Shown in pieces: positions 4,063 through 51,239 of a stretch of 64,000 nt of DNA. The translations under genes and the position numbers were made by a program. Source of the stretch: Larkinella rosea (lineage in GTDB: Bacteria > Bacteroidota > Bacteroidia > Cytophagales > Spirosomataceae); NCBI RefSeq assembly GCF_003858635.1, contig NZ_RQJO01000008.1:1240001-1304000 (forward strand), read 5' to 3'. The first letter of the stretch is position 1; the number at the start of each line of letters is the position of its first letter. The notes under the pieces are model-generated. The model worked only from the letters and a program-made list of their open reading frames with translations. It did not search any database and was not told the origin of the DNA.

Positions 4063-4147
4063 AGATAAAAGAGGTGAGACAAGAGATGATAGACAAGGAG
4101 TACGAGCCCATTTAACGGTTTTGGTCTCTCGTCTCACTTCTTTATTC
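4063..4147. repeat. Intergenic imperfect palindrome (element A)
   Basis: Arms of about 23 nt at 4063-4085 and 4125-4147 pair with four mismatches. The arms are made of drifting words such as GAGAC, AAGAG and GATAGAC. The central loop of about 39 nt is different in composition. It lies between the divergent ribBA and surface-protein genes. Its word set recurs at 8694-8778 and, as a half copy, near 6358-6387. Confidence 0.75.
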
Positions 4148-4172
4148 TCACGTCTCTTGAAACATTGTTCCG

Positions 4173-4180
4173 CAAAGATA
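4173..4180 (-). promoter_or_regulatory. Putative -7 element for ribBA
   Basis: TATCTTTG on the minus strand is an exact match to the Bacteroidota -7 consensus TAnnTTTG. No TTG is found at the expected -33 spacing, so the assignment is tentative. A transcript from here would carry element A in its 5' leader. Confidence 0.45.
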
Positions 4181-4258
4181 CGTTCGATACGCTAAATTTG
4201 TGTTTCGAACGTTTTTATCCTAACGAGTGCTTGTAGCGACAAAAAATCTTTACCCTTT

Positions 4259-6256
4259 GTGAGAGTCATCAGGAAATGCTCAGCCGGTTTAGTGGGAATA
4301 GTCTGGCAGCCGATCTGGATTTTCCTGATCGGAGCGGTTTTTGGTTTAAATTCAAACACGTTTGCTCAAGCAACTGTTAATTGGTGTGTGACTCTTCCGG
4401 ATCCATCAACTACCAAGGGTAGTTTTAACGTATCGGTCGTAAAAGGATGTGCACCACTCGCCATTACAGTAAAAAATATGACCGCGAGCCCGGATAATTT
4501 ATTCCGGTACGTTTACGATTACAAAGGTGGAGACCCGATTGCCACGAATGCCAGCGTTTCGGCTGTTACATATACCTACACAAAACCGGGCAAATACACC
4601 ATTCTACAATTGGGCAGTATTCAGGGAACCGGTTCGGTGGCCTGTCAGGAAATTGAAGTGCTCGATGCCACCCCGCCGAATTTTCGGGCCTACAGTTGTG
4701 CCGATCTGAAAGTGGTGCTGGACATTGTCAACGACGCGGTGGCCAGTCAATACGACGAATTTCTGGTCGACTGGAATGACGGAAGTCCGATACAAACCAT
4801 TCCGAAAACCGCGCTGGCCGGAATCAGTCATCAATACAAAAACAATTCAAATTATACGATCAAGGTAAGTGGAAATTATGCGGGAATAAACTGCGGAGGG
4901 GGCTCTTTTCAGCAGGTGACGCCCATGCTGAGCAGCGAATTTGTAAAACCGGTCATTACCAAACTGACCACGGCGGGCTCGAACATTACGCTACAGGTCC
5001 AGGCCGGTGCCAAACAGACGGTGACGGTCCACCAGCAGAGTTCATCTGGTGTTTTTTCTCCCACCACCCTCTCCCGGATTGGCAATGGCACGCTGGTGAT
5101 TCCCACTATCACATCACACCCGACCTGCTTTAAACTGGTTTCGATGGATGCCTGCGGTCAAAAATTTGAATCGAATGAAGTCTGCAGCATCGGGCTGGAA
5201 GTAAAAGCGGAGGAAAAACAGAATGCGGTTACCTGGACAGTCGCCAGTAACCTGACCGGTTTTAAGCAGTATGCGGTTACCAAAAATGACGGCGCTTTTC
5301 GGACCATCACGAACGGCGCCACGAACTCCGTTGTCGATTCGGAAGGGATAACCTGCAACGAACCGTATTGCTATCAGGTGACGGCCCAGGCCGGTCCGGC
5401 CGAAATTGTATCGGACAAAGTCTGCGTAACGGCCCGTTCGTCGGCCACACCTCCTCCGTTTTCCACCGTACAAGTTTCGGTCAACGGCGACAACCGGGTC
5501 GATTTGCGCGGTTTGCCGCCGATTCCGACCACCATCAGTCCCACCTATAAAATGATTGTGTTCCGCCGGGATCAGCCGGGGGGAACCTTCACCCAAACCG
5601 CCGAAGAAATTGACCGGAATATTCATCAGGACGGGAGTGTGCAGCCCCAAAAACAGTCGTACTGTTACGAAATCGTTTACCAGAACGCCTGTGGGGTTTC
5701 GTCGGAACCTTCCAGAATGGTTTGCACGATTTACCTGAATTCCAATTCGGCTTCCACCATCGACTGGACGGGCGATTCGCCGTTTGCCAACGAGGAAATC
5801 GATCATTATATCGTCGAAAAAATCGATGATAGTGGCGTGGTGTGGGCCGAACTTTCCGTTGGCACTCAAACGTCTTATGTGCCGGGCAGTGAGCCCGATA
5901 CGCAGCGGTTCCGGTTTCGGGTCAAGGCGGTTTCGAAGTCCGGCGCCATCAGTTACTCCAATTTCTACACCTTCGTGCAGGCTGCGCGGATTTTCATGCC
6001 GGATGCGTTTACGCCCAATGATGACAAAGAAAATAATGTGCTCGAAGTAAAAGGCAGCACCTATTTTGAATCCATTCAGATGACGGTCTACAACCGCTGG
6101 GGCGAAGTGGTGTTCCATACCGAAAGCCGGGAAGGCTGGGATGGGAAGATCGACGGAAAACCAGCTCCGGCCGGAACCTACGCCTACCGCATTAACGCCA
6201 TCGATCCAAACGGTGCGAAAACAGAAAAGATCGGCAAGGTGTTACTGATTCGGTAG
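4259..6256 (+). CDS. Gliding-motility-type surface protein with PKD domain and T9SS type B tail
   Basis: Secreted protein of 665 residues. A signal peptide (hydrophobic core WIFLIGAVFGL, cleavage near FAQA) is followed by a PKD-like segment at about residues 60-135 (YTYTKPGKYTILQLGS). Several Fn3-like or Ig-like cysteine-containing modules come next, and then a C-terminal CHU_C/gliding-associated domain at about residues 575-665 (FMPDAFTPNDD, VYNRWGEVVFH, GWDGKIDGKPAPAGTYAY). That tail is the type B sorting signal of the type IX secretion system, so the protein should reach the cell surface. The start is a GTG; no earlier in-frame ATG exists. A sequence resembling a -7 element (TACCCTTTG) overlaps this GTG, which leaves the start somewhat uncertain. 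Adhesion or carbohydrate binding is plausible but unproven. Confidence 0.88.
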   Translation: MRVIRKCSAGLVGIVWQPIWIFLIGAVFGLNSNTFAQATVNWCVTLPDPSTTKGSFNVSVVKGCAPLAITVKNMTASPDNLFRYVYDYKGGDPIATNASVSAVTYTYTKPGKYTILQLGSIQGTGSVACQEIEVLDATPPNFRAYSCADLKVVLDIVNDAVASQYDEFLVDWNDGSPIQTIPKTALAGISHQYKNNSNYTIKVSGNYAGINCGGGSFQQVTPMLSSEFVKPVITKLTTAGSNITLQVQAGAKQTVTVHQQSSSGVFSPTTLSRIGNGTLVIPTITSHPTCFKLVSMDACGQKFESNEVCSIGLEVKAEEKQNAVTWTVASNLTGFKQYAVTKNDGAFRTITNGATNSVVDSEGITCNEPYCYQVTAQAGPAEIVSDKVCVTARSSATPPPFSTVQVSVNGDNRVDLRGLPPIPTTISPTYKMIVFRRDQPGGTFTQTAEEIDRNIHQDGSVQPQKQSYCYEIVYQNACGVSSEPSRMVCTIYLNSNSASTIDWTGDSPFANEEIDHYIVEKIDDSGVVWAELSVGTQTSYVPGSEPDTQRFRFRVKAVSKSGAISYSNFYTFVQAARIFMPDAFTPNDDKENNVLEVKGSTYFESIQMTVYNRWGEVVFHTESREGWDGKIDGKPAPAGTYAYRINAIDPNGAKTEKIGKVLLIR

Positions 6257-6319
6257 ACACTCCGGGAAAGAGAAGCGACAAAAGAAAGCAGAAAGCCGGG
6301 TAGGCTATTCATTCCTTGC

Positions 6320-6327
6320 TACCTTTG
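6320..6327 (+). promoter_or_regulatory. Putative -7 element for ybaB operon
   Basis: TACCTTTG, an exact TAnnTTTG match, 67 bp upstream of the ybaB ATG. No convincing TTG is present at -33. Confidence 0.4.
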
Positions 6328-6394
6328 CTTTAACAATCGGATTGTATTGTTAATTTTTCTCTTGTCTATTATCTCACTTCTTTTTTCGTAAGCT

Positions 6395-6730
6395 ATGTTC
6401 AATATGATGGATATGTTCGGTAAGGTGAAGGAATTTCAGGCGCGCATGAAAGAAGCACAGGCCAGCCTGAACACCCTAACTGAATCGGGAGAATCGGGTG
6501 CCGGAATGGTTCATGTAACCGTCAACGGCCTCAAACAGGTTATTCGGCTGACCATCGATCCGGATTTGATTCGGCCTGAAGACCGCGAAATGTTGCAGGA
6601 TCTGGTGGTTGCCGCCACGAACAAAGCTCTTGAAAACGTAGAACCGAAAATCAAAGCTCATCTTCAGAAAGCAACCGAGGGATTGTTGCCCAACATTCCC
6701 GGTTTCGACCTGGGAAATCTGATGTCGTAA
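6395..6730 (+). CDS. YbaB/EbfC family nucleoid-associated protein
   Basis: Small dimeric DNA-binding protein of 111 residues, the normal family length. An N-terminal helix rich in Met, Lys and Gln (MFGKVKEFQARMKEAQ) is followed by the beta-strand core (VHVTVNGLKQVIRLTIDPDL) and the family motif EDREMLQDLVVAATNKAL. It is thought to bind and bend DNA in the nucleoid; in other bacteria it sits beside dnaX/recR, which are not here. It is followed 3 bp later by the glycosyltransferase gene, suggesting co-transcription. Confidence 0.95.
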   Translation: MFNMMDMFGKVKEFQARMKEAQASLNTLTESGESGAGMVHVTVNGLKQVIRLTIDPDLIRPEDREMLQDLVVAATNKALENVEPKIKAHLQKATEGLLPNIPGFDLGNLMS

Positions 6731-6733
6731 GGC

Positions 6734-7774
6734 ATGGATGACGTTGCCATCGTTATTTTAAATTACAACGGGAAAACATTTCTGGAGCAGTTTTTACCTT
6801 CCGTACTCGCCAATGCCGAAGGTTTTCCGGTTTATGTAGCCGATAACAATTCCACCGACGATTCCCTGGCCTTCCTCCAGAAGCGGTTTTCGTCGGTGCG
6901 ACTCATTCATTTGCCCATCAATCTGGGGTATGCAGGCGGTTATAATGCGGCTTTGAAACAGATCGAAGCCCGGTTTTATCTGCTGCTGAATTCGGATGTT
7001 GAAGTGAGCCCGAACTGGCTGACGCCCTTGCTGGCGCTCATGAAATCCAATTCCCGGATCGCGGCCTGTCAGCCCAAACTCCGCGATTTTAAAAATCCCC
7101 GGCTGTTTGAATATGCCGGGGCCGCCGGGGGCTACATTGATTACCTGGGGTATCCATTTTGCCGGGGGCGGTTATTCGATACCGGTGAAGACGACCGCCA
7201 TCAGTATGACGACGCGCGGGAAATATTCTGGGCAACGGGTGCGTGTATGCTGGTTCGGTCGGATGTTTTTCATCGGTTAGACGGTTTCGACCCCCGGTTT
7301 TTTGCCCACATGGAAGAGATTGACTGGTGTTGGCGGGCCAAAAACGCCGGTTATCAAATTTGGTATTGCCCCGATTCGGTGGTTTTTCACGTCGGCGGTG
7401 GCACGCTCCATAAATCCAATCCCCACAAAACGTTTTTGAATTACCGCAACAGTCTGGCGATGCTTTACAAAAATCTGCCGGAAGGTCACGTGTTTCTCAA
7501 CCTGATGATCCGGCTGGTGCTGGATGGGTTATCGGGTTTGCGGTTTCTGGCGTCGGGCCACTGGCGGGATACGCTGGCGATTTTAAAAGCCCATTTTACC
7601 TTTTACAGCTGGTTGCCCTACCTGCGCAAACAACGGAACGCGCTGGCCGACCTGCGAAAAAACCGCATCACCCACCGGGAAATTTACCCGCACAGCATCA
7701 TCTGGCAATATTTTGTGAAAGGAAAAAAAACGTTCGGTGAATTGCCGAAGGTTGAAAACAACCCCAATCTATAA
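6734..7774 (+). CDS. GT2 family glycosyltransferase
   Basis: Cytoplasmic or membrane-associated transferase of 346 residues with a GT-A fold. The N-terminus VAIVILNYNGKTFLEQFLPS and NNSTDDS (nucleotide-sugar binding), the acidic metal motif LLNSDVE, and the acceptor-side HMEEIDWCWRAKNAGY with the ED-type catalytic region are all present. The type resembles rhamnosyl or polysaccharide side-chain transferases; the donor and acceptor cannot be told. It ends overlapping the 3' end of the convergent pspC gene by 6 bp. Confidence 0.93.
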   Translation: MDDVAIVILNYNGKTFLEQFLPSVLANAEGFPVYVADNNSTDDSLAFLQKRFSSVRLIHLPINLGYAGGYNAALKQIEARFYLLLNSDVEVSPNWLTPLLALMKSNSRIAACQPKLRDFKNPRLFEYAGAAGGYIDYLGYPFCRGRLFDTGEDDRHQYDDAREIFWATGACMLVRSDVFHRLDGFDPRFFAHMEEIDWCWRAKNAGYQIWYCPDSVVFHVGGGTLHKSNPHKTFLNYRNSLAMLYKNLPEGHVFLNLMIRLVLDGLSGLRFLASGHWRDTLAILKAHFTFYSWLPYLRKQRNALADLRKNRITHREIYPHSIIWQYFVKGKKTFGELPKVENNPNL

Positions 7775-7990
7775 CTCCCAGACGGTTGGATGGTGATGTC
7801 GCCGGAGGTGTTTGCGCATTTCCATCCAGAACGCCATTATGAGGTACAGAACGACAGGAGATCCCAGCGTAAGACACGATGTATAGATAAAATACAAACG
7901 AATGCTGCTGGCCGAAATGTTCATTTTCTCGCCCAATCGTGCGCAAACGCCAAATGCTTGACTTTCTACGAAATACCTGAGTTTATTCAT
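7769..7990 (-). CDS. PspC domain membrane protein
   Basis: Short PspC-family protein of 73 residues. The N-terminus NKLRYFVESQAFGVCARLGEKM matches the start of the PspC domain, and one hydrophobic segment follows (LTLGSPVVLYLIMAFWM). PspC proteins in Proteobacteria take part in the membrane-stress phage-shock response; in Bacteroidota stand-alone copies are common and their role is less clear. The tail is His/Arg-rich (RKHLRRHHHPT). It converges on the glycosyltransferase gene and has its own well-formed promoter at 8078-8108. Confidence 0.88.
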   Translation of the reverse strand: MNKLRYFVESQAFGVCARLGEKMNISASSIRLYFIYTSCLTLGSPVVLYLIMAFWMEMRKHLRRHHHPTVWEL

Positions 7991-8077
7991 AGCCGTAATG
8001 CTCCTGATAATCAGTGCTGGATGGTCAATCGTCTGATTTATGCCGGAAAACCCTCGTCAAGGGATTTGTTCGATTAC

Positions 8078-8108
8078 CAAAGATACACCGAACGAATTTG
8101 ATCAACAA
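8078..8108 (-). promoter_or_regulatory. Bacteroidota-type promoter of pspC
   Basis: On the minus strand: TTG (8106-8108), 20-bp spacer, then TATCTTTG (8078-8085). This matches the -33 TTG / -7 TAnnTTTG pattern with normal spacing. It predicts a leader of about 80 nt before the pspC ATG. Confidence 0.7.
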
Positions 8109-8414
8109 TTCCTAAAACGTTTTGTTTGCGTTAATATTTACCAATAAATTTAATTTGTATAATTAAGTCGTTAAATAAGCCAATAAAAATCGAATGGAAT
8201 TGTTTACATATTCGTGACAAATTTTGTTACTTTGTGTTTACTAAGCTGTTGTCTTAGTAAAAGTTAATTTATTTTTGCTATTCAACAAAGTCAATGCATA
8301 GACGGTTTGTTCCATCCGTATCGCCATTTTCGTGTGTTAACCTGGGACCTGTTTGAAGACTTTTGTTAAGAATACTCCAGTCAGTAATGTTTTATTTTTA
8401 ATTTTTTAAGTTCT
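8109..8414. other. AT-rich spacer and 5' leader before the cold-shock gene
   Basis: This gap holds no convincing ORF. It includes the strong hairpin at 8238-8260 just after a -7-like TTACTTTG (8227-8234, one mismatch to consensus). A transcript from there would have an untranslated leader of about 170 nt. Long structured leaders are typical of cspA-type genes and control their temperature response, so a similar role is inferred. Confidence 0.5.
8238..8260 (+). promoter_or_regulatory. Perfect hairpin at the start of the csp leader
   Basis: TTACTAAG (8238-8245) and CTTAGTAA (8253-8260) form a perfect 8-bp stem around a 7-nt loop. It sits immediately downstream of the presumed promoter. It could be a 5' stabilising RNA hairpin or an operator palindrome. 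Confidence 0.5.
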
Positions 8415-8621: not shown

Positions 8622-8643
8622 GAAACAACTTCTTCAAAAACAT

Positions 8644-8673
8644 AAAAACCCCGATCGCATGACCGGGGTTTTT
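8644..8673 (+). terminator. Rho-independent terminator of the cold-shock gene
   Basis: AAAAACCCCG paired with CCGGGGTTTTT around a short loop, ending in a T-rich run (TTTTTGTTGTTTTT). It lies 22 bp past the stop codon. Confidence 0.92.
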
Positions 8674-8693
8674 GTTGTTTTTAAGAGCAGTGG

Positions 8694-8778
8694 GAGATGA
8701 GACAGGTGAGTAGAGACAAAAAACGCTCACAGATCAGCTGGTCTTTCCTCTCTTGTCTTACGTCTTTCATCTAATCTC
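8694..8778. repeat. Intergenic imperfect palindrome (element C)
   Basis: The left arm (8694-8717, GAGATGAGACAGG...) and the right arm (8742-8778) share the GAGAC/AAGAG/TTAGATG word set of element A and pair loosely. The right arm contains the stop codon (8767-8769) and the last three codons of the GreA-like gene. The loop includes AGCTGA on the minus strand, a partial match to the common loop motif. Confidence 0.65.
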
Positions 8779-9228
8779 AACAATCCGGATCGGTTTTCCA
8801 TTGAAAACCACTTCGTCATTCGGTTTGGCGTGGCTCAACCGGACAGCAATGGGCGACGCAGCCGAAACCGCGAAGTAGTCGGTTTGGTCGACCGTCAGTT
8901 TGCCGGCGCTGATAGCAATGAAATAATTCCCTTGACTCGTGATCACCAGACTTCCCGGCTGAACGATCGAATAGGTTTTCCCGACGTCGATCCGACTCAG
9001 TTCCTGCTGAAGCTTATGGGCTTCGGCCAATTGCTGGGCGTGGCGGTCGCGCTCGATCTGCGCCATGGCCCGACCGGTTTCGTATTTATCGCCCGCACTG
9101 CTTTTCGATTCTTCATTGGCCGCCGACTGGGCTGCTTCCATGGCGGTTTTGGCCGTTTCGATGCGTTGCTCAACGTACTGTTGACATCGGTCGAAAAGAG
9201 TCTGCTTAATCGGGACGTAATCGATCAT
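8767..9228 (-). CDS. GreA/GreB-like elongation factor domain protein
   Basis: Protein of 153 residues. An N-terminal helical hairpin of about 75 residues (ETAKTAMEAAQSAANEESKSSAGDKYETGRAMAQIE) leads to a C-terminal beta domain (VQPGSLVITSQGNYFIAIS ... SPIAVRLSHAKPNDEVVFNG) resembling the FKBP-like C-terminal domain of GreA. Members in Bacteroidota are often mis-named 3-oxoacyl-ACP synthase. The classical acidic tip (DxxE) of GreA is not clear, so cleavage-factor activity is uncertain; RNA-polymerase binding through the C-terminal domain is the best inference. Confidence 0.75.
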   Translation of the reverse strand: MIDYVPIKQTLFDRCQQYVEQRIETAKTAMEAAQSAANEESKSSAGDKYETGRAMAQIERDRHAQQLAEAHKLQQELSRIDVGKTYSIVQPGSLVITSQGNYFIAISAGKLTVDQTDYFAVSAASPIAVRLSHAKPNDEVVFNGKPIRIVEIR

Positions 9229-12675: not shown

Positions 12676-12682
12676 GTGGATC

Positions 12683-12757
12683 GGAACACGGATTTAACGG
12701 ATTGAACCGATTCGAACGGATTACTTTATCCGTGATAATCCGTCTAATCCGCGTTCC
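12683..12757. repeat. Intergenic imperfect palindrome (element D)
   Basis: Arms at 12683-12709 and 12731-12757 (27 nt, several mismatches). Each is built from repeats of the word CGGATT (four variants in the left half). It lies between the divergent lysS and SPFH genes and would cover the upstream part of the lysS promoter. Confidence 0.75.
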
Positions 12758-12850
12758 TATCAAAATTTGTAACCGTTTATCAAAAAAATAGCGGCAGGAA
12801 ATTGAAATAATTGCTACTATTGTGCTATCAAAATAATATCATAAATCGCC

Positions 12851-13775: not shown

Positions 13776-13949
13776 ATGGCTGCGGAGAAAAAAGCATTTG
13801 TGTTACGGATCAACCCCGAAACGCTGAAGGAACTCGAACGCTGGGCGCAGGAAGAGTTTCGCAGCGTGAACGGTCAGATTGAATTTATCCTCAATGAAGC
13901 GTTGAAAAAGCGGAAGAAAGGAACCGGCTCCGGGGAAAAAGGCGAATAG
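13776..13949 (+). CDS. Small Arc-like ribbon-helix-helix protein
   Basis: 57 residues from the ATG at 13776 (MAAEKKAFVLRINPETLKEL); an upstream TTG in frame lies inside element E and is not needed. The pattern of an N-terminal beta strand (KAFVLRI), then two helices (PETLKELERWAQEEFR, NGQIEFILNEALKKR) is that of Arc/MetJ ribbon-helix-helix DNA-binding proteins. The tail is Lys/Gly-rich. It lies directly after the SPFH gene, which suggests a shared role or a regulator of the pair. DNA targets are unknown. Confidence 0.82.
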   Translation: MAAEKKAFVLRINPETLKELERWAQEEFRSVNGQIEFILNEALKKRKKGTGSGEKGE

Positions 13950-14806: not shown

Positions 14807-14856
14807 GTACGAAACGACGGTTCAAAACTACTGTAAATTTTCGTCAGCAGCCTAAA

Positions 14857-14889
14857 TCAAAAAGCACCGGTGTGATCGGTGCTTTTTGA
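14857..14889. terminator. Bidirectional terminator without an obvious gene
   Basis: Perfect 13-bp stem TCAAAAAGCACCG/CGGTGCTTTTTGA with a 7-nt loop and U-tracts in both directions. It lies upstream of coaX, so it does not end that gene, and no plus-strand gene runs into it. It suggests a short minus-strand transcript from 14890-15150. Confidence 0.8.
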
Positions 14890-15151
14890 GTCACTTTCGT
14901 GTCCTTTAATGGAGCCTAATCCGGGTGAGTTTGGTCCTGAGACCAACCGATTCGCATCCGAAACAGGGTTTTGAGCCAGGAGGGTTTATTTTCCGGGAAG
15001 TCAAAGGAAAACGGCAGGTGCTGCAGGCGCTATCAAATTTCTCCCAAAGGCTATAACGGTTTTAACAGCGGCCGTTTTTCTTGTGTTTTTGATCGCTTTA
15101 CAACCGGATTTTACCCGCTTTTCGTGGAGAAAAGCGGTAACGCTTCTTTTA
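14890..15151. other. Gap with possible short minus-strand transcript or gene remnant
   Basis: No gene with a normal start is seen. On the minus strand a 37-codon open frame ends at the TAG 14916-14918, 27 bp before the terminator at 14857. It encodes FDFPENKPSWLKTLFRMRIG followed by WSQDQTHPD, but lacks an ATG at its head. A hairpin CCGCTTTTC/GAAAAGCGG lies at about 15115-15137. It could be a small RNA, a decayed gene or nothing. Confidence 0.3.
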
Positions 15152-19975: not shown

Positions 19976-20122
19976 ATACGAAGGACAGCATCCTATTGGC
20001 CGTTGTATTCTCCATTGGGTGATGGGAGTCGGCAGGGAGTGTAGATGTGCGCTCTCTGCCGCGGCTATTTCAGGAGTAACCCGAACCGGGTAGAACCGTT
20101 GATTTCGGGTAAACATAAAAAC

Positions 20123-20159
20123 AAAAAACCGCTAATTCGTGAAGAATTAGCGGTTTTTT
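20123..20159. terminator. Bidirectional terminator between the T9SS gene and tRNA-Gln
   Basis: Perfect 16-bp stem AAAAAACCGCTAATTC/GAATTAGCGGTTTTTT with a 5-nt loop. It can end the plus-strand surface-protein operon and the minus-strand tRNA transcript, whose mature 3' end is 13 bp away. Confidence 0.93.
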
Positions 20160-20171
20160 GTTTTTGTCAGT

Positions 20172-20327: not shown

Positions 20328-20377
20328 GAGTAACGAGTTAAGAAGTGCCGAATGCATTAATTCTTAACTCGTTACTC
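20328..20377. repeat. Intergenic palindrome (element F)
   Basis: Perfect 17-nt arms GAGTAACGAGTTAAGAA (20328-20344) and its complement (20361-20377). A third copy of the right-arm word (AATTCTTAACTCGCTACG) follows at about 20380 and overlaps the last codons and TAA of fabD. Confidence 0.8.
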
Positions 20378-21299: not shown

Positions 21300-21325
21300 G
21301 ATCGTAATTGTCTCTTGGACCGTCT

Positions 21326-21410
21326 TGAACTGGGATTACGCGGATTAAAGGATTAAGAGGATATAAAAGATAATCATAGTTAATCCTTTAATCCGCGTAA
21401 TCCCAGTTCA
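21326..21410. repeat. Intergenic perfect palindrome (element G)
   Basis: 31-nt arms (21326-21356 and 21380-21410) are perfectly complementary, starting TGAACTGGGATTACGCGGAT. The 23-nt loop begins GAGGATATAAAAGAT. The left half and loop start are almost the same as those of element J at 33679-33782, so the two are copies of one repeat. Confidence 0.9.
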
Positions 21411-21457
21411 GGAATCTTTAAGAATGTTGGGCGACAAAGCTAACAGTTTCAGCGGTT

Positions 21458-22855: not shown

Positions 22856-24826
22856 ATGATCGACGTACTAGAAGAGCAAGAAACCGGAATCAAGCTGGAC
22901 TCAAAAGCTCCGGAAGGCCCCCTGGCTGAAAAGTGGGCGAAACATAAATTCAACCTGAAGCTGGTAAACCCGGCTAATAAACGGAAATACGAAGTTATCG
23001 TTGTCGGAACCGGTCTGGCCGGAGCGTCGGCAGCGGCTGCCCTGGGTGAACTGGGCTACAACGTCAAGGCGTTCTGCTTTCAGGATAGCCCCCGCCGGGC
23101 GCACAGCATTGCGGCTCAGGGCGGTATTAACGCGGCTAAAAATTACCAGAATGACGGCGACAGCGTTTTCCGGTTGTTCTACGACACCATCAAAGGCGGT
23201 GACTACCGGGCTCGCGAAAGCAACGTTCACCGACTGGCCGAAGTAAGCGTCAATATCATCGACCAGTGTGTCGCTCAGGGAGTTCCCTTCGCCCGTGAAT
23301 ACGGCGGAGCATTGGCAAACCGGTCGTTTGGGGGGTCGCAGGTATCACGGACGTTCTACGCGCGGGGCCAAACCGGCCAGCAGTTGCTGCTGGGGGCTTA
23401 CAGTGCGCTGAGTCGTCAGGTTGCCAACGGGAAAGTGAAACTCTTCCCGCGCACCGAAATGCTGGATCTCGTCATCGAAGGCGGTAAAGCCCGTGGTATC
23501 ATCACCCGCAACCTGGTTACCGGTAAAATCGAATCCCACTCGGCACATGCGGTTTTGCTGTGTACGGGCGGTTACGGCAACGTTTTTTACCTGTCGACCA
23601 ACGCGATGGGATCTAATGTGACAGCCGCCTGGCGGGCCCACAAAAAAGGGGCGTTGATGGCCAATCCGTGCTTCACCCAGATTCACCCCACCTGTATTCC
23701 GGTCAAAGGAAAATACCAGTCGAAACTCACACTGATGTCGGAGTCGCTGCGGAACGATGGCCGGGTTTGGGTACCGAAAACGGAAGAAATTGCCGAGCGG
23801 GTTCGCAAAGGTGAAATCAAGGCGAAAGATATTAAGGAAGAAGACCGCGATTATTTCCTGGAACGCCGGTATCCGTCGTTCGGAAACCTGGTGCCGCGCG
23901 ACGTGGCTTCGCGGAATGCGAAAAACGTCTGCGACGAAGGCCGGGGCGTTGCGGCCTCGGGTCTGGCGGTTTATCTCGACTTTGCCGATGCCATCAAACG
24001 CGACAGCAAAAAGGTGATTGAAGCCAAGTATGGCAACCTTTTCGAGATGTACGAGAAAATCGTGGACGAAGACCCGTACGAAACACCGATGAAAATTTAC
24101 CCCGCCGTTCACTACACGATGGGCGGTTTGTGGGTCGATTATAACCTGATGACGAACGTTCCGGGCCTGTATGCCCTGGGCGAGGCTAACTTCTCCGATC
24201 ACGGAGCCAACCGGCTGGGTGCTTCGGCACTGATGCAGGGGCTGGCCGACGGTTATTTCGTTATTCCCTATACGCTGGGTGATTACCTCGCAACGATTGG
24301 TCCGGCCGATAAAATCCCGACGACGCATCCCGCTTTTAAGGATGCCGAGCAAACCGTGAATGACACGATTTCGCGCATGTTGTCGATTAAAGGCGATAAA
24401 ACCGCTGAAGAATTCCACCGGCAACTGGGCCACATCATGTGGGAGTACTGCGGAATGGCGCGGAATGCGGAAGGGTTGACAAAAGCCAAAAAACTCATTC
24501 AGGAACTGCGGAAGGAGTTCTGGACTAATCTGCGGTTGACGGGCAGTGACATGGAGCTAAATCCCGCGCTGGAACAGGCTTCCCGCGTGGCCGACTTCAT
24601 CGAACTGGGCGAACTAATGGTCGACGATGCGCTGAACCGGAATGAATCCTGCGGAGGCCATTTCCGGGAAGAGTTCTCGACCGAAGATGGTGAAGCCAAA
24701 CGCGACGACGAGCATTATACGTATGTAGCCGCCTGGGAATACAAAGGCCCGAATCAACCGGAAAAGCTACACAAGGAGATGCTGAAGTTTGAAACTGTGA
24801 AGCTGACACAACGGAGTTATAAATAA
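22856..24826 (+). CDS. sdhA: Succinate dehydrogenase/fumarate reductase flavoprotein subunit
   Basis: 656 residues. FAD-binding [10 protein letters not shown] at about residues 51-60; the [12 protein letters not shown] motif carries the His that binds FAD covalently. HPTCIPVKG and RDVASR belong to the active site, and [11 protein letters not shown] with [12 protein letters not shown] completes the C-terminal FAD region. It oxidises succinate to fumarate (or the reverse) on the cytoplasmic face. It is 44 bp after sdhC; 62 bp separate it from sdhB, and this gap carries a word-repeat palindrome that includes the sdhA stop codon. Confidence 0.97.
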
Positions 24827-24869
24827 GGGTTAACCGTTTAAGGTTCAACGTTTAACGTTTTAAACCTTA
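24824..24869. repeat. Word-repeat spacer inside the sdh operon (element H)
   Basis: TAAGGGTTAACCGTTTAAGG and following variants of GTTTAACG/GTTCAACG end in TTTTAAACCTTA. The outer TAAGGgTTAA and TTAAACCTTA pair with one mismatch. The sdhA TAA stop is the first three bases of the left arm. Confidence 0.55.
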
Positions 24870-28158: not shown

Positions 28159-28800
28159 TCAAGCCGGTTGGGGGAGAAGTTCGAGGGTTTGATTTTGAAT
28201 GATCCAGGTCGAATCGACGGGAAGTTCCGTCGGATCGACATCCTGGTGCGTCGATAGCAGAAAACTTACGCCTTGCTGGCGTTGTTGCCGGATGCGTTCA
28301 ATCACTACTCGGGTAGTCGCGTGGTCGAGCGTAATGAGCGGTTCGTCGAGCAGAATGAGGTGCGGTTTTCCCAGAAAAGCCAGGACCAGCGACGTTTTTT
28401 TGAGCATTCCGCTCGAATAGGTGCCAACCGGCGTTTTCATAAAATCCCGGATTCCAAACAGATCAATCAATTCATCCACCTGCTGGTTAGGGCTCTGTTT
28501 GGTCGCAGCCACCCAGCGAATCAACTCCCAGGCTGACAGAAATTGCGGATACAGTGGTTCGGCTTCGCCGTAATTGACCCGCAACCGATATTCGACCGGC
28601 TGTTGGCGAATGTCGTATTTATTATCCAGCACCAGCGTCCCTTCAAAGGGTAACAACCCGGCGACCGACCGAAAAAAAGTCGTTTTACCCGAGCCATTGC
28701 GACCTTTTAGCCAGTGAATTCCCGGCGAAAAATCCGCCTGCGGAATCGCCAGCACCAGTCGGTTGTGGTACGATTTTTGAAAATTCCGGATACTGAGCAT
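28159..28800 (-). CDS. ABC transporter ATP-binding protein
   Basis: 213 residues. Walker A GRNGSGKTT (about residues 34-42), Q-loop region with YGEAEPLYPQF, signature YSSGMLKKTSLVLAF (a variant of LSGGQ), Walker B LILLDEP and H-loop STHQD are all present, so it should be active. Its ATG shares one base with the haloperoxidase stop codon (ATGA overlap) and the permease follows at once. This implies co-transcription with the haloperoxidase lipoprotein, which is unusual for a transporter. Confidence 0.92.
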   Translation of the reverse strand: MLSIRNFQKSYHNRLVLAIPQADFSPGIHWLKGRNGSGKTTFFRSVAGLLPFEGTLVLDNKYDIRQQPVEYRLRVNYGEAEPLYPQFLSAWELIRWVAATKQSPNQQVDELIDLFGIRDFMKTPVGTYSSGMLKKTSLVLAFLGKPHLILLDEPLITLDHATTRVVIERIRQQRQQGVSFLLSTHQDVDPTELPVDSTWIIQNQTLELLPQPA

Positions 28801-33678: not shown

Positions 33679-33782
33679 TGAACCGGGATTACGCGGATTC
33701 AGGGATTAAGAGGATATAAACGATTTAAAAAGATTGCGGTAGCCAATCCCCTTAATCCTTCAATCTGCGTAATCCCGGTTCA
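33679..33782. repeat. Intergenic imperfect palindrome (element J), copy of element G, with loop motif
   Basis: Outer arms starting TGAACCGGGATTACGCGGAT (from 33679) pair with a right arm ending in CCCGGTTCA at 33782. The left half matches element G almost base for base (GGATTAAGAGGATATAAA follows). The loop contains GGCTACCGCA on the minus strand (33735-33744). It lies between the two paralogous FG-GAP genes, ending 6 bp before the next stop codon. Confidence 0.9.
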
Positions 33783-37263: not shown

Positions 37264-37295
37264 CTGAAAAAGCCCGGAGACCCGGGCTTTTTCAG
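37264..37295 (-). terminator. Rho-independent terminator after susD
   Basis: Perfect 14-bp stem CTGAAAAAGCCCGG/CCGGGCTTTTTCAG with a 4-nt loop and T-rich sequence after it on the minus strand. It lies 16 bp past the susD stop, so it separates susCD from the FG-GAP genes, at least partly. Confidence 0.9.
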
Positions 37296-45440: not shown

Positions 45441-47111
45441 ATGAAAAATCGATTGGCCTGGGCGCTGGCGGGTATTTTGCTGCTGATTGGTTCCGGTTTG
45501 GCGCTGACCCATAACCTGCCGTGGCGGTATGATGTGACCTTCGGCGACGAAATGACGTACCTCGCTTCGGGCCTGACCTATACGTTTCCGCCCGATCCGT
45601 ATCTGGCGCAGTGGGGTTCGTTGTATGCAGCCTGGTTGCGGTTTTTGCAGGTTTTTGCGCCCGATACGCTCGATTTGTTTTATCTCAACTGGCGGTTGCT
45701 GATCATCCTGACCGGCACTTTGCTGTTTTTATACCTCTACCTGCGAAAATTGGGTTTTGCCGTCAGCCTTTTTTGCGCGCTTTGTTTCCAGTTTTCGGCG
45801 CTGAACGTGTTGCTGGATCCCCGGATTTCGGCGTTTACGCTTTGCCTGATGCTCGCAGGATTGTGCGTTATTCAGGCCCGAAACTGGTCGGCGCGGACAG
45901 TGCTGTTGCTCACGGCGGTCACGGCACTGGTTTGCGCGTATGTCCGGCCCGAATTCTACGTGTCGATGTTCATTGCGATTGGTCTGGCCGTTGGTACATT
46001 CCTGATTCCAAAATTGCGTCGAAACGGGAAAGGTCCGCAGGTGCTGGCGGAGTTTGCGGGCGTTGTGGTGTTGGTGGTGTTGATGCGGTTTTTGTTTGGC
46101 AATCCGCTGGCGCAGGACGAGCAGGGCAGCAACCGCAGTTTTCAGGCGTTTGTGCAACACTTCAGCATCAATTACAACACCTGGCATAACCGCCCGATCG
46201 ACATTCCGATTATTGAACAGTTTCAATTGATTGAGGATGTTTTCGGGCCGGACGTCAAGTCGTTGCGCGATGCGGCCCGGGTTCATCCTGATCTGGTTAT
46301 CAAGCATTTCTGGACGAATATTGTTAATACGACAAAAGCGGAATTTCGGGTTTTAGGCAGTTTGTTTTTCGAAACTCCGCTGAAAAACCTGAACTCGCCC
46401 TACCGGAAGTGGATGCTGGCGGTCTTATTCGCAGTGGTCGTTTTCGGATTTATTGACATTCCGGGAACAATTCGTCAGTTACGTTCGAAACGAATTCGGC
46501 TGACCAGCAAGGAATTGGCTTTTCTGATTTTGCTTTTACCTTCATTGGGTTCGGTGGTGCTGGTGTTTCCTCGGACACACTATCTTTATTTTCACGCCGT
46601 TGCACTGGTGACGATCGTGGCGTTTCTGTTGGGAACCATTAAACTGCGCGCGGTGCAGTCGCCGGTTTTGCTGGGCGGTTTGGTGAGTCTGATGATGATC
46701 TGGGTGGTTTTCCAGACGGTGCAGCAACAGAAGGAATTTCAGCCGACGCCCGTAGCCGACAACATTCGGTTTATTCGCTCGCTGTCGCTTGAGGAGACGG
46801 TTTCGACGCTGGAGCGGGAATGGTACCGGGTTTTTCTCTACGGCCCCGGGCAACAACCGCGCTGGATTCAGGTTGAATCGTACCAACAAAATACCGACTT
46901 TGGCCGTTTTCTGAACGATCAGAAGGTCAATTTCATTCTGATGACCCGCGACATGCAGCGTTATTTTGCCGCCGACCGCGGTTTTGCGGCATTTCGGCCG
47001 GAAGCGGGCGGTTTTCGGCGACTGAAAGCGCCCGAGCCGGGGAGTTATTTGCTGATCCGTCCGGAGTTGTTGTCGAAGGATTCCAGCGTTTCGTGGCTAC
47101 AGAAGCCTTAG
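45441..47111 (+). CDS. Multi-pass membrane protein, GT-C glycosyltransferase-like
   Basis: 556 residues from the ATG at 45441. About ten transmembrane helices are seen (WALAGILLLIGSGLALT, LLIILTGTLLFLYLYL, VLFAVVVFGFIDI and more). An acidic first loop (FGDEMTYLASG) resembles the catalytic DE/DD loop of GT-C enzymes such as the GT39/GT83 group. A soluble C-terminal part of about 120 residues follows. It may add sugars to lipids or proteins using a polyprenyl donor; this is inference. It is 2 bp after the dehydrogenase and 1 bp before the small membrane protein, so the three are co-transcribed. Confidence 0.7.
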   Translation: MKNRLAWALAGILLLIGSGLALTHNLPWRYDVTFGDEMTYLASGLTYTFPPDPYLAQWGSLYAAWLRFLQVFAPDTLDLFYLNWRLLIILTGTLLFLYLYLRKLGFAVSLFCALCFQFSALNVLLDPRISAFTLCLMLAGLCVIQARNWSARTVLLLTAVTALVCAYVRPEFYVSMFIAIGLAVGTFLIPKLRRNGKGPQVLAEFAGVVVLVVLMRFLFGNPLAQDEQGSNRSFQAFVQHFSINYNTWHNRPIDIPIIEQFQLIEDVFGPDVKSLRDAARVHPDLVIKHFWTNIVNTTKAEFRVLGSLFFETPLKNLNSPYRKWMLAVLFAVVVFGFIDIPGTIRQLRSKRIRLTSKELAFLILLLPSLGSVVLVFPRTHYLYFHAVALVTIVAFLLGTIKLRAVQSPVLLGGLVSLMMIWVVFQTVQQQKEFQPTPVADNIRFIRSLSLEETVSTLEREWYRVFLYGPGQQPRWIQVESYQQNTDFGRFLNDQKVNFILMTRDMQRYFAADRGFAAFRPEAGGFRRLKAPEPGSYLLIRPELLSKDSSVSWLQKP

Positions 47112-47112
47112 C

Positions 47113-47319
47113 ATGACCACTATTCTGAAAGCCGTTGTCGTTGTTTTGATGGTAGTTACCTGGCTCGTCACCGGTTTATTGCTGGCTTTTTTTACCCCAA
47201 GTTTCTGGGGGAAAATTGCCACCGGAGGCATTGGAATAATCATCAATATCATGCTGGCTTTTGCCTACAGTTGCATTGGCCAGCGCCCCGCCAGCTTTCG
47301 CGATTGGTTTAAAATGTAA
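47113..47319 (+). CDS. Small two-helix membrane protein
   Basis: 68 residues, not recognised. Two hydrophobic segments (LKAVVVVLMVVTWLVTGLLL and IATGGIGIIINIMLAFAYSC) are joined by FFTPSFWGK, with a short polar tail (RPASFRDWFKM). It follows the glycosyltransferase-like gene by 1 bp and probably shares its transcript. It could be an accessory subunit of that enzyme; this is inference from position only. Confidence 0.72.
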   Translation: MTTILKAVVVVLMVVTWLVTGLLLAFFTPSFWGKIATGGIGIIINIMLAFAYSCIGQRPASFRDWFKM

Positions 47320-47381
47320 CCGCTGACAGGTAGAATACCGGTTTTCGTACGTTCTTATAGCGAGTATCAAGATTCAACTTC

Positions 47382-49352
47382 ATGAATAAACTGCTTTGTT
47401 TAATTGGAATTCTTTGTATCATGGCTGAGGTCCGGGCCCAATCCGGTACTTCTTCCAAATACGACGCCCACGAGCTTTTCCATCCGCTTTTCAATATGCA
47501 GCCGGGGAACGATTACCGCACGGGCGGAGGCTCACCCGGTCCGCGTTACTGGCAAAACCGGGCTGATTACAAAATCAACGCTCGCCTGGACGATGAGAAA
47601 AATGTATTGACCGGCGAGGTCGAAATCACGTATAAGAACAACAGCCCCGAAGCCCTGCCGTTTGTCTGGCTGCAACTCGATCAGAATGCGTTTTCCGATA
47701 CGTCACGCGCTACGAAAACGACACCGGTACGGGGTGGTCGCTATGGCAACTCCGGTTTTTCCGGCGGTTTTGCGATTCAGTCCGTCACGATCGATGGGAA
47801 ATCAAAACCTGTGGATTACCTGATTACGGATACGCGGATGCAGGTGCGGCTGGCCGAACCGCTCAAACCCGGTGGTGATGTGATAAAATTAAAAATCGAG
47901 TACACATTTAAAATTCCGGCGTATGGTTCTGATCGGATGGGGACTTCGCAATCGCGCAACGGGCTGATTTACGAAATGGCGCAGTGGTATCCGCGGATGT
48001 GCGTCTTCGACGACGTTGAAGGCTGGAACGTGTTGCCGTATTTGGGCGCCGGTGAGTTTTACCTGGAATACGGTGATTTTGAATACGCGATCGACGTGCC
48101 CTGGAATCACATTGTGGTTGGTTCCGGCGAACTGCTGAACCCGCAGGAGGTGTTGACCGCTGAACAGCAAAAACGGCTGGCGCAGGCCCGTAACAGCGAC
48201 AAAACCGTATTGCTCCGTTCCCGGGACGAGGTAAACGAACCGCAAAGCCGCCCGAAGCAAACCGGCCGCCTGACGTGGCGGTTTCGTTGCCAGAGCGCCC
48301 GCGATGTAGCCTGGGCAACGTCCAAAGCGTTTGTGTGGGATGCCGCCCGGATTAATTTGCCAAGCGGGAAAAAAGCGCTGGCCATGTCGGCGTATCCATC
48401 CGAAAGCGCCAGCGACGATTCCTGGAACCGCTCGACGGAATACGTCAAAGGTTGTATTGAATTTTACTCGAATTACCTGTTCGAATACTCGTACCCGGTG
48501 GCGACCAATGTGGCCGGGATTGTGGGCGGAATGGAATACCCCGGCATTGTTTTCTGCGACCGGCGCGATCGGAAAGAATCGCTTTGGAACGTTACGGACC
48601 ACGAATTTGGCCACAACTGGTTTCCGATGCTTGTGGGCAATAACGAACGGAAATATGCCTGGATGGATGAAGGCTTCAATACGTTCATCAACCAGCTTTC
48701 GACGGCAAATTTCAACAAGGGCGAGTACAACCGGCCGAAAGGAACGATGCACGATGTGGCGCCGGCTTTATTTAACATCGACGAACCTATTATGACCATC
48801 CCTGACGTACTGCAACCGCTGCATCTGGGCGTGATGGGGTATTATAAACCGGGTATGGGCCTGAAACTGCTGCGCGATGTGGTACTCGGTCCGAAGCGGT
48901 TTGATTTTGCGTTTAAAACTTACGTTCATCGCTGGGCGTTCAAACACCCGACGCCTTACGACTTTTTTCGAACCATCGAAGATGCTGCCGGAGAGGATTT
49001 AGGCTGGTTCTGGCGCGGGTATTTCTTCGAAACCTGGAAACTGGATCAGTCGGTGAAAGACGTGCGGTATGTCGAACAGGACCCGCAGAAAGGATCGGTG
49101 ATTACCATCGAAAATCTGGAAAAATGGGCGATGCCGGTCACCATTGAAGTGGAAGAAGTAGGCGGCAAAAAAACGCGGGTCAATCTGCCGGTCGAAATCT
49201 GGCAGCGGGGCGGCACCTGGAGTTTCAAACAACCGACTACCGCCCCCATTCGGTCGGTGACCATCGATCCGGACGAGCAGATGCCGGACATCAATCCGAA
49301 AAACAACGTCTGGAAAAATAGTTCGGCGCCGTCGTCTTCAACGGCGAATTAG
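47382..49352 (+). CDS. Secreted M1 family metallopeptidase
   Basis: 656 residues. The signal peptide ([17 protein letters not shown]) places it in the periplasm or outside. The gluzincin site is complete: His407-Glu408-Phe-Gly-His411 and, 18 residues later, Glu430 (WMDEG). The upstream exopeptidase-type motif reads GGMEYP (about 382-387), a variant of GxMEN. The N-terminal beta saddle (residues 60-290) is as in aminopeptidase N, but the C-terminal helical bowl is shortened. It probably cleaves N-terminal residues from peptides. It is convergent with the KASIII-like gene; palindromic element K fills the gap. Confidence 0.93.
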
Positions 49353-49361
49353 GAATGAAGA

Positions 49362-49428
49362 ATTAGGGGTTATGAACGATGAATTAATGCGCTGCAATAG
49401 CCAAAATTCAACGTTCATAACCCCTAAT
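49362..49428. repeat. Intergenic palindrome (element K) with loop motif
   Basis: 24-nt arms at 49362-49385 and 49405-49428 pair with one mismatch (left arm ATTAGGGGTTATGAACGATG...). The loop holds GGCTATTGCA on the minus strand (49393-49402). It fills the 82-bp gap between convergent genes, ending 6 bp from one stop and starting 9 bp from the other, so it may act as a bidirectional terminator, though no T-run is present. Confidence 0.88.
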
Positions 49429-49434
49429 CTGACT

Positions 49435-50382
49435 TTACACTTCCACCAGCATCGCACCAAACGAATAGCCTCCGCCGAAAACCGTCAGGACGATGTTCTG
49501 ACCCTTTTTGAAAACCGCCCGGTTTTCGGATAACGCAATCGCGCAACCCGCACAACCGGTATTCCCCAATTTCTGAATATTCGAAAGCAATTTCGATTCG
49601 GGAAGTTTCAAGGTATTAATCACGTTCAGGCTGATGCGCAGATTGGCCTGGTGCGGAATCAGGTAATCCACGTCGTCGATGGTCAGGTTGTGCTTTTCCA
49701 ACACCTGCACGCTCACCTTCGGCATGTAGAGGCAGGCATTGATAAACACGTCGCGGCCGTGGGGCATAATAACGCCTTTTTCCAGCGGTTTTAGCATCAC
49801 ACCGGTGGTGGCTTTTCCGCTCGTAGCGGCTCCGCCCGTAATGATGGTGTGGATCGTCATGTCATCGTCACTGATTCGCTCTTTCGAGATGAGCATAGCA
49901 GCCGCTCCGTCGCCCCACAAATGCCCCGAAACCGTATCCAGCTCGTTGTTGTAGGCGGTGTTGTGTTCCGAAACCACCACGACGGCCAGCGACGCTTTGT
50001 TCATCGCAAAATAGCCTTCTACCACTTCCACGGCGTTGATCAGCGACGAACAGGCCGTCGAAACCGAGACAACCGGGATATCCGCAACGCCCAGATTATG
50101 CTGAACGACGTGCGCCAGCGTAACAATGGTATCGTAAGGCGTGTACGTGGCGCCTACAATGAGATCTATTTGAGAGGGTGCAATCGTCGTTTGGTCGAAC
50201 AGAAGCCGGACGGCTTCCAGCGCCATGGTGTTCGTATTTTCGTCAGGAGCTGCTTTGCGACGCTCCCGAATACCGGTACGTTCGATAATCCAATCGCTCG
50301 ATAATCCGTTGAGCTTAGTAAAGTGTTCGTTTCCAACTACTTCGCTTGGAAAGTAATGACTAACGGCATGAATATACATCAT
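49435..50382 (-). CDS. 3-oxoacyl-ACP synthase III family protein (FabH-like)
   Basis: 315 residues, a thiolase-fold enzyme. The catalytic triad is complete: Cys111 (STACSS), His243 (IPHQAN) and Asn273 (GNTGCAG). DWIIERTGIRERR near residue 30-42 is the usual CoA-binding N-terminal motif. It condenses an acyl-CoA primer with malonyl-ACP; whether it serves general fatty-acid initiation or a special lipid cannot be decided. Two adjacent ATGs (50382, 50379) are present. It has no fab neighbours. Confidence 0.93.
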   Translation of the reverse strand: MMYIHAVSHYFPSEVVGNEHFTKLNGLSSDWIIERTGIRERRKAAPDENTNTMALEAVRLLFDQTTIAPSQIDLIVGATYTPYDTIVTLAHVVQHNLGVADIPVVSVSTACSSLINAVEVVEGYFAMNKASLAVVVVSEHNTAYNNELDTVSGHLWGDGAAAMLISKERISDDDMTIHTIITGGAATSGKATTGVMLKPLEKGVIMPHGRDVFINACLYMPKVSVQVLEKHNLTIDDVDYLIPHQANLRISLNVINTLKLPESKLLSNIQKLGNTGCAGCAIALSENRAVFKKGQNIVLTVFGGGYSFGAMLVEV

Positions 50383-50466
50383 ACAAAATAAAAGAAAGGA
50401 AACCGCCTTAGGGATTCCACACCGAAAATTAAGTATTTCCGGGAAAGCGTAGTATTGAAAATTGGA

Positions 50467-50527
50467 ACAATACTACAAAATCTTTCTTTCTTTATTGGTT
50501 TTGTGAAAGATTTAGCAACAATATTGT
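50467..50527. repeat. Intergenic inverted repeat between the Uma2 and FabH-like genes
   Basis: AAATCTTTC (50478-50486) pairs perfectly with GAAAGATTT (50505-50513), with an outer ACAATA (50467-50472) answered by TATTGT (50522-50527). It is AT-rich and resembles a hairpin of the same general type as elements A-L, without the loop motif. The remaining 192-bp gap shows no gene. Confidence 0.55.
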
Positions 50528-50574
50528 AGATACACGAATTAGTAAACAGAATAATCCGATATCCGGGGTTCGTT

Positions 50575-51156
50575 TTAATTCAGCAAGTCGACGGTTTGGT
50601 CGTAAACTTCCCGTAGCGGAAGGGTAAAATCAAGCGTCTGAATGGTCAGGGAATCGTCAGCTTGCGTGGTTTCCGTTCGTAACGTCCAGAACCCGTTGTC
50701 CGGTTTAAACCAGGCCTCCGCCCGAACCTGTTCGGAGTCGATTAGAATGTATTCCTGAAAAGTAGGAATGTTGCGGTATAGCATAAACTTACTTCCACGA
50801 TCGTAGTCTTTCGTACTGCCGGACAACACTTCAACAATAACCGTCGGATTCAGCAGCGTATCAAAGTTGGAATCAAGCAGTTCCGGTTCTCCACGAACAA
50901 TGACCAGATCGGGATATGTATACAGGGAGTTTGAGGGAATGTGAAGCCGCATATCGGATGAAAAGGACTGACAGCGTTTCCCTCTTAAATAAGAACCAAT
51001 TCCAATAGAGAGATTTTCTTTAATCCGATTGTGGTTGCGGGATGCGCCAGCCATCGCGAATATTTCACCTTTGAAATATTCACTCTTGTGGTCCGCTTTG
51101 CGTTCCAGTTCCAGATAGAGTTCCGGTGTGTAGTGTGGTTTCGGCTGAGCAGACAT
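50575..51156 (-). CDS. Uma2 family (PD-(D/E)XK-fold) protein
   Basis: 193 residues. The DUF820/Uma2 pattern is clear: LERKADHKSEYFKGEIFAMAG at the N-terminus, the putative nuclease core YPDLVIVRGEPE and NPTVIVEVLSGSTKDYDRGS, then KFMLYRNIPTFQEYILID. The Asp/Glu set fits a PD-(D/E)XK active site. Cellular roles are unproven; the family is greatly expanded in cyanobacteria and some Bacteroidota. It lies after secA, separated by palindromic element L. Confidence 0.92.
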   Translation of the reverse strand: MSAQPKPHYTPELYLELERKADHKSEYFKGEIFAMAGASRNHNRIKENLSIGIGSYLRGKRCQSFSSDMRLHIPSNSLYTYPDLVIVRGEPELLDSNFDTLLNPTVIVEVLSGSTKDYDRGSKFMLYRNIPTFQEYILIDSEQVRAEAWFKPDNGFWTLRTETTQADDSLTIQTLDFTLPLREVYDQTVDLLN

Positions 51157-51165
51157 GGTGGTTGG

Positions 51166-51239
51166 TTTATAGTTTAAGGTTTATAGTGGTTGGCACAGGC
51201 TTTGGAATGAGTCAGCCACTATAAACCCTAAACTATAAA
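51166..51239. repeat. Intergenic palindrome (element L) with loop motif
   Basis: 24-nt arms at 51166-51189 and 51216-51239 pair with one mismatch and are made of TTTATAGTTTAAGG words. On the minus strand GGCTGACTCA (51208-51217) begins the loop. It fills the gap between the secA stop (51250) and the Uma2 start (51156). Confidence 0.88.

Follow-up and report, generated by a model that had tools for sequence, protein, structure and literature searches.

Long-loop quasi-palindromes behind stop codons of a Bacteroidota genome form word families and are probably rewritten by template switching

Heptamer stem-loops in Nostoc, template switching and inverted repeats behind stop codons are each known singly. 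The P6b stem-loop of the Nostoc trnL intron is built of the heptamers TDNGATT (Class I) or NNTGAGT (Class II); word class and copy number vary, the structure stays, and one class repeatedly replaces the other (PMC4476775). Heptamers also recur as direct repeats: TAACTGA has been described from Beggiatoaceae, from cyanobacteria and from five Bacteroidetes, and GGGAATC from Xanthomonas (PMC4679880, PMC4692102). Template switching has a published signature, homogenisation of arms together with inversion of the spacer (PMC8604942, PMC8794818). One of these papers describes it for inverted repeats in yeast coding sequence (PMC8604942), the other for RNA genes (PMC8794818), and the former cites earlier work of its authors suggesting that repeated switching is common in proteobacterial non-coding short inverted repeats. 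In bacteria, the frequency of perfect inverted repeats is highest 50-80 bp past the stop codon (PMC13155455). A subclass of RAYT genes, mostly of Bacteroidetes, has atypical flanking structures that recur at other places of the same genome (PMC6006769). Here we analyzed the intergenic palindromes of the window, a stretch of 64,000 nucleotides (G000:C11:1240001-1304000) from genome G000 (8.17 Mb, 18 contigs), in which an earlier note had named eleven spacers filled by palindromes. We consider it likely that they belong to dispersed long-loop quasi-palindromes, of about ten families, which are rewritten by replication template switching.

We quantitated palindromes with a score of at least 15 in 1.024 Mb of G000, made up of 40 segments of 20 kb each, taken at set coordinates, and 224 kb around the window, and used three dinucleotide shuffles as a control. 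There were 113 intergenic palindromes, while none was detected in the three shuffles combined, so the genome count exceeds the shuffled one. In predicted coding DNA 20 were found against 1 in the shuffles. Genes were called by a simple longest-ORF (open reading frame) rule, therefore the labels coding and intergenic are approximate. Chance self-complementarity of spacers, refuted by these counts for the sample as a whole, is next to impossible as a general explanation, and the one spacer that speaks for it is 8694, which folded no better than its shuffles. The 113 palindromes were divided into 87 with a loop of at least 9 nt (long-loop, median loop 22 nt) and 26 with shorter loops (short-loop). 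By extrapolation, the whole genome holds approximately 700 long-loop elements.

Of the long-loop elements, 57 lie in tandem spacers, 23 in convergent and 6 in divergent ones, and one is unassigned; the densities were 1.03, 1.50 and 0.26 per kb, respectively. The tandem elements are at a median distance of 4 nt from the stop codon, and 45 of the 57 lie within 15 nt of it. Among 49 spacers with free space, 37 elements were within 15 nt of the stop, while random placement in the same spacers gave 26.3. The stop codon itself was overlapped by 23 of the 81 elements that adjoin a gene 3' end. The claim that the palindromes hug stop codons is therefore borne out, also in the window, where 13704, 20328, 30229, 33679, 49362 and 51166 are 0-11 nt from a stop and 24824 follows directly after that of sdhA. 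Divergent spacers rarely carry an element, yet 4063 and 12683 both sit in such spacers. T-runs were indeed few, as had been claimed (6 of 87 long-loop, 11 of 26 short-loop elements).

The arms of long-loop elements are built of periodic words. We observed peaks at lag 7 (z 8.8), 14 (z 6.6), 8 (z 5.1), 10 (z 5.6) and 20 (z 5.0), while none of these lags exceeded z 2 in the short-loop hairpins (n = 26). When arms were sorted by word type, with motifs chosen by us and some groups of only 2-5 arms, AATGAAC, TTGACC, GAGTTAA and GACAAGAG arms peaked at lag 7, GAGTGAATG arms at lag 8, GCGGAGTTAA arms at lag 10 and two GATT types, more weakly, at 9. The 5' arm was richer in G than in C in 59 elements and poorer in 17. 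The arms had been described as unrelated and the words as unique to each element, and this did not hold. With the threshold set above every shuffled comparison made, 70 of the 87 sampled arms fell in 10 clusters and 17 were singletons; 21326 and 33679 both belong to one family, F6, for which we obtained 21 distinct copies anchored in both arms. The largest cluster joins two word types via mixed elements, e.g. L146:7366.

Arms of one element resemble each other more than they resemble arms of other copies in the same genome. The arm sequence GGTTTACGGTGGCTGACGC, with at most 3 mismatches, occurred 108 times in the genome, while its reversed control occurred once. The 96 sites that entered the analysis gave 32 pairs in facing orientation, at 31-90 bp, and no pair pointing outwards. 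In these 32 elements an arm differs from its own partner by 2.0 bases and from non-partners by 3.1; for the 21 F6 copies the values were 2.7 and 5.3 (0 of 20,000 permutations in both cases).

We compared orthologous spacers in eight genomes of the same genus, whose sdhA DNA is 81-92% identical to that of G000. For 78 spacers of G000 an ortholog was found in at least one relative, and in 24 of these at least one species carries an element. One of the 24, locus 209484, was excluded from the set, as its spacer in the relatives is a repeat of the one at 28799 and the locus appears to be a paralogous gene pair. Orthologous sites were often occupied by hairpins with different words. In the secA spacer (51166) the core is retained in five species and the words around it are of several types; four relatives have words other than those of G000. 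At 33679 the stem of G002 is paired at 28 of 28 positions, yet 8 positions of one arm and 7 of the other, out of 28 aligned in each, are not as in G000. Further, we counted the pairs in which both sides had changed and compared them with within-element permutations in four species pairs, three of which share G000. The excess was present in all four (6 vs 3.0, p = 0.025; 5 vs 2.1, p = 0.023; 17 vs 7.8 and 16 vs 5.1, 0 of 5000 permutations each), so arms do change together in orthologous spacers. A standard pair was kept in 4, 5, 15 and 10 of these changes, respectively.

Loops were also found inverted between species. In 43 ortholog comparisons, several of which share a locus, 6 loops were inverted and 8 conserved forward at a score of at least 20 (6 and 9 at a score of at least 18; the null was approximately 1% each). 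The six inversions represent 5 loci and span 13-50 nt. Where G000 and G004 both carry an element, the loop was inverted at 3 of 6 loci. Within G000, F6 copies (n = 21) showed the two loop orientations in 8 and 4 cases, and 9 were unclear.

We propose that copies would settle right behind stop codons, where the DNA would be expendable and free of promoters. A polymerase would copy one arm from the other, and by this the arms would be homogenised, the loop inverted and inserts carried across arms. The words may change by slippage in word units (7, 8 or 10 nt) and also by occasional exchange with other copies, perhaps starting at a G+C-rich apical core that some of them share. The earlier note had offered three ideas, namely products of a word-copying process, mobile miniature elements and 3'-end RNA hairpins. 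The first is the best supported, by co-change of arms above expectation, loop inversion and turnover of words in orthologous spacers.

The third idea seems unlikely to us; in it, selection would maintain the RNA hairpins because they terminate transcription or stabilise mRNA, and the arms would change by ordinary compensatory substitution. The position just past stops and the higher density in convergent than in divergent spacers agree with it. Several species retain hairpins, of differing sequence, behind fabD and in the sdhA-sdhB spacer, and a T-run follows the fabD hairpin in 6 of 8 relatives, not in G000. On the other side, T-runs are rare overall, loops are inverted and the presence of elements varies among close species. 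We also counted mismatches on the sense strand in 125 tandem elements from five genomes and observed 108 G-U and 106 A-C. In a control of 52 short-loop hairpins chosen for a T-run there were 22 G-U and 10 A-C; the elements of G000 alone gave 23 and 34. RNA pairing predicts G-U over A-C, and this was not seen in the elements; therefore the hairpins appear to be held near-perfect mainly by mutation. The place behind stops would then reflect where elements are tolerated, and recruitment as a terminator may have happened at some loci, for example at fabD, where six relatives have the T-run. We rejected the intrinsic terminator for long-loop elements as a class, given the T-runs in 6 of 87 elements, the median loop of 22 nt and the missing G-U preference. 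A known functional RNA was rejected as well: no known Rfam family coincides with elements in the window, where a search at gathering scores matched only a tRNA.

The second idea, a non-autonomous mobile element of the MITE (miniature inverted-repeat transposable element) or REP (repetitive extragenic palindromic) kind, moved by a transposase and replacing older insertions at tolerant sites, is possible, though we rate it as clearly the less probable cause; it could act together with template switching. Families are dispersed with unrelated flanks, one F6 copy has 67 partial or full matches, and relatives carry another word class at the same site. In G003 a palindrome-bearing insertion of 150 bp has CTAAAG on both sides, which is single in G002 (spacer 14849-15071 of a joined stretch of G003, whose first part is the reverse complement of L122), a possible insertion event. 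However, flanking direct repeats were not in excess (observed and expected: 10 and 11.6 for k = 3, 5 and 3.3 for k = 4, 0 and 0.9 for k = 5), and the target-site duplication of a MITE was rejected with this one possible case aside. A GTAG/CGTC motif was present at 8 of 174 element feet, while shuffles gave 10.4, and the two transposase genes inspected in G000 are not flanked by the same palindromes; a REP/RAYT system was rejected on these grounds. Of these two genes, L002 is flanked by unrelated CCGGAGC hairpins of its own and L001 has no word palindrome within approximately 1.5 kb. Y1 transposase counts do not track element density, and insertion alone does not produce co-change of arms. As a side observation, L002 (G000:C13:33813) matches Y1 transposase just below the Pfam cut-off, and its three flanking hairpins are conventional (CCGGAGC...GCTCCGG), unlike the word palindromes.

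Homologous recombination could also swap spacers between related species, in which case differing arms would be old alleles with no local rewriting. We regard this as improbable. At the 28799 locus, by eye, G002 and G006 have one spacer type and G000, G004, G003 and G007 another, and the alternative spacer common to G002 and G006 suggests exchange between species. Such exchange leaves unexplained both the inversion of loops between conserved arms and the closer match of arms within an element than between copies in the same genome.

The spacer types at 28799 also count against rewriting by template switching, and several other observations do so too. Over all species pairs there were 127 one-sided changes, while 42 both-sided changes were still paired and 15 were unpaired; one-sided changes are common, therefore homogenisation of arms would be slow or partial. 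Of 12 spacers with an element in G000 or G004, both species carry it at 6. The replacement of a whole word class at secA could be explained equally by recombination with another allele or by a new insertion. Stop codons are enriched in the arms of the 87 elements (5' arms 200 vs 171 shuffled, z 4.7; 3' arms 93 vs 79, z 2.8), which is not expected from mutation bias alone. Most elements have no exact copy of the apical core. The position and the fabD T-runs in relatives would be compatible with a 3'-end function at some loci. Since the 5' arm is denser in stops than the 3' arm, either strand is read into the stop-rich arm first. All three frames are closed in the 5' arm of 20 of 87 elements (23% vs 10% shuffled); we considered a "triple-frame stop" function, and this closure may follow from which copies gene ends tolerate.

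The apical core, TGGCTN(1-3)CGC, was present in 28 of 217 elements across all sampled genomes, with differing arms, and in 9 of 96 elements of G000. Within elements it occurs 1.6-6.3 times per kb, compared with 0.03-0.19 times per kb in the remaining intergenic DNA, and 37 of 42 occurrences lay in the inner half of the element. The sequence GGCTGACGCA occurred 97 times in G000, while its reversed control occurred 24 times. It was enriched also in G002, G003, G004, G006 and G007 and in members of three other genera, and against the same control it was not enriched in G001 or G005, nor clearly in G008. The core might be a recombinogenic switch point where nascent strands switch from arm to arm or to distant copies, and by such copying arm "dialects" would spread through the genome without a transposase; we put this forward as a speculation that is rather unlikely to hold. 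Separately, we noted a G+C-rich module near CCGCCGGGCGGCCCCG in or beside the arms of L244, L231, L256, L207:13314 and the G007 ortholog of 33679. The insert is in both arms of L244 and in one side only of L231 and L256, which are F6 copies.

The elements of the window are listed below. Briefly, we scanned it for ungapped inverted repeats with a score of at least 13, and folded spacers as single-stranded DNA in comparison with 200 dinucleotide shuffles. Nine of the eleven named spacers (4063, 12683, 13704, 20328, 21326, 30230, 33679, 49362 and 51166) folded better than all 200 shuffles (z from -2.7 to -13.9), and the scan found the same nine. The palindrome at 8694 was not confirmed by folding (z +0.7; 150 of 200 shuffles fold equally well). 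The one at 24824 was marginal (z -1.66; 15 of 200), while G002, G003 and G007 have a clear hairpin between sdhA and sdhB. The neighbouring genes are of Bacteroidota type (CHU_C secretion domain, SecA, FabD); the closest named relatives of FabD were Lacihabitans, Dyadobacter and Runella, in a comparison from which near kin of the window were possibly omitted. Directly after element 13704 there is a small ORF at 13776-13949, with the start ATGGCTGCGGAGAAAAAAGC, which is conserved in the six relatives that cover the site.

Table 1. Palindromes of the window and two ordinary hairpins given for contrast (positions in the window).
Feature	Position	Strand	Evidence and setting
Palindrome with 30-nt arms, GAGACAAGAG words, divergent spacer	4057..4154	no strand	scan and folding, z -2.7
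Claimed GAGAC-word palindrome, folding not significant	8694..8784	no strand	z +0.7; absent from window scan
Palindrome GATCGGAACACGGATTTAACGGATT, resembles GATAGGAACGCGGATT cluster, divergent spacer	12679..12761	no strand	scan, clustering, z -4.6
AATGAAC-heptamer palindrome, core GGCTGACGCA in loop	13704..13766	no strand	2 nt past stop of Band_7 gene; scan and folding
Short-loop ordinary hairpin, A- and T-runs, adjoins tRNA-Gln (contrast, non-member)	20117..20165	no strand	scan
GAGTTAA-heptamer palindrome	20328..20377	no strand	8 nt past fabD stop; no T-run in G000
F6 family element (GGATTACGCGGATTAAAGGATTAA)	21323..21413	no strand	core stem 31/31 paired; z -13.9
Weak GGTTTAA-heptamer hairpin between sdhA and sdhB	24824..24868	no strand	directly past sdhA stop; z -1.7
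ATGAATG-heptamer palindrome overlapping stop codon, core GCTGACGCA in loop	30229..30306	no strand	scan and folding
F6 family element, loop with inverted core GCGGTAGCCA	33679..33782	no strand	7 nt past stop; scan and folding
Short-loop terminator-like ordinary hairpin (contrast, non-member)	37264..37295	no strand	scan; stem identical in G004
Palindrome, convergent spacer	49362..49428	no strand	two stops, at 7 and 10 nt; loop inverted vs G004
GTTTATA-heptamer palindrome with apical core	51166..51239	no strand	11 nt past secA stop; scan and folding

The density of long-loop elements differed between genomes. In the same genus it was 125 per Mb in G004, 120 in G003, 90 in G002 and G006, 85 in G000 and 62 in G005, with 25 in G001 and 0 in G008. 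Outside the genus we obtained 100 in G045 and G033, 50 in G012, 25 in G028, 17 in G009 and 0 in G041 and G052. The values outside the genus are rough, as they come from 20-100 kb each, and those for G001 and G008 from 40 kb each, so single elements weigh heavily in them. In G033 the arm period was 8, not 7. A scan of 80 loci across Bacteroidota (1.48 Mb), with a slightly looser intergenic rule, gave 24 long-loop elements, with lag 8 slightly above lag 7 in a count that had no shuffle control.

None of SbcD, exonuclease VII (ExoVII), Y1 transposase and reverse transcriptase follows element density across the tested genomes. Loss of SbcCD was rejected as the cause, since sbcD was above the cut-off in all nine genomes of the genus, dense and sparse; elsewhere, dense G045 had only a match below the cut-off, and sparse G028 and G041 had none. 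The model for the ExoVII large subunit (xseA) had no match in the nine same-genus genomes G000-G008, nor in G033. Loss of ExoVII was rejected too, as xseA is missing also in sparse G009, G028 and G041 and present in dense G045 and in G012. A reverse transcriptase was rejected as the generator, because RVT_1 had no match in dense G002, G003, G004, G006 and G045.

If rewriting by template switching is the cause, hundreds of sites per genome would record it, visibly between species that are approximately 92% alike in sdhA DNA, and template-switch mutation would become measurable in natural genomes. Co-varying hairpin arms, the usual proof of RNA function, could then come from mutation alone. It would also bear on the open question why 7-nt words recur in bacterial repeats. 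In searches of an open-access library, with subscription papers mostly outside it, we recognised no description of the genome-wide combination with word families, a partly shared apical core and frequent loop inversion.

In summary, the elements share features with several known systems. Sites of the attC type carry the base motifs R' (GTTRRRY) and R'' (RYYYAAC). These motifs were found in 0 of the 87 long-loop elements, and an attC site was rejected. With intrinsic terminators the elements share a hairpin behind the stop codon, and behind fabD in relatives also the T-run; from these and from the known post-stop inverted repeats they differ by a median distance of 4 nt, long loops, few T-runs and the lack of a G-U preference. 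As in REP/RAYT systems, they are intergenic palindromes in many copies. However, they have no GTAG/CGTC foot, form several word families per genome and are unlike the local transposase hairpins. Our comparison with the atypical RAYT-flanking structures is by the description in PMC6006769. Thus dispersed families speak for mobile miniature elements, and the absence of a direct-repeat excess, of a REP foot and of a matching transposase neighbourhood speaks against them. For 3'-end RNA hairpins the position and the fabD T-runs stand, against the absent G-U preference and the rarity of T-runs.

The heptamer direct repeats are likewise intergenic 7-nt repeats, and one Xanthomonas pair is an inverted repeat. 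As described in PMC4679880 and PMC4692102, they differ in being mostly direct copies of one word, with TAACTGA placed mostly before start codons. The stem of the Nostoc P6b stem-loop also consists of degenerate 7-nt words, which corresponds to the peaks at lags 7 and 14 in our elements. The earlier note had held the combination of palindrome and words to be unlike cyanobacterial repeats, and P6b weakens this view (PMC4476775). Some families here use 8, 9 or 10 nt, and G033 shows 8. Further, P6b is described as one intron locus, whereas here we estimate several hundred sites behind protein genes in Bacteroidota, with loop inversions and, in some, the core.

Both parts of the template-switch signature were observed in our elements, namely co-change of arms in 4 of 4 species pairs and spacer inversion in 6 of 43 comparisons at 5 loci. 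The yeast spacers measure 3-5 nt in the accessible table rows of PMC8604942, while the inverted loops here span 13-50 nt. Here 6 of the 14 readable ortholog comparisons were inverted, and this was observed in dispersed word families.

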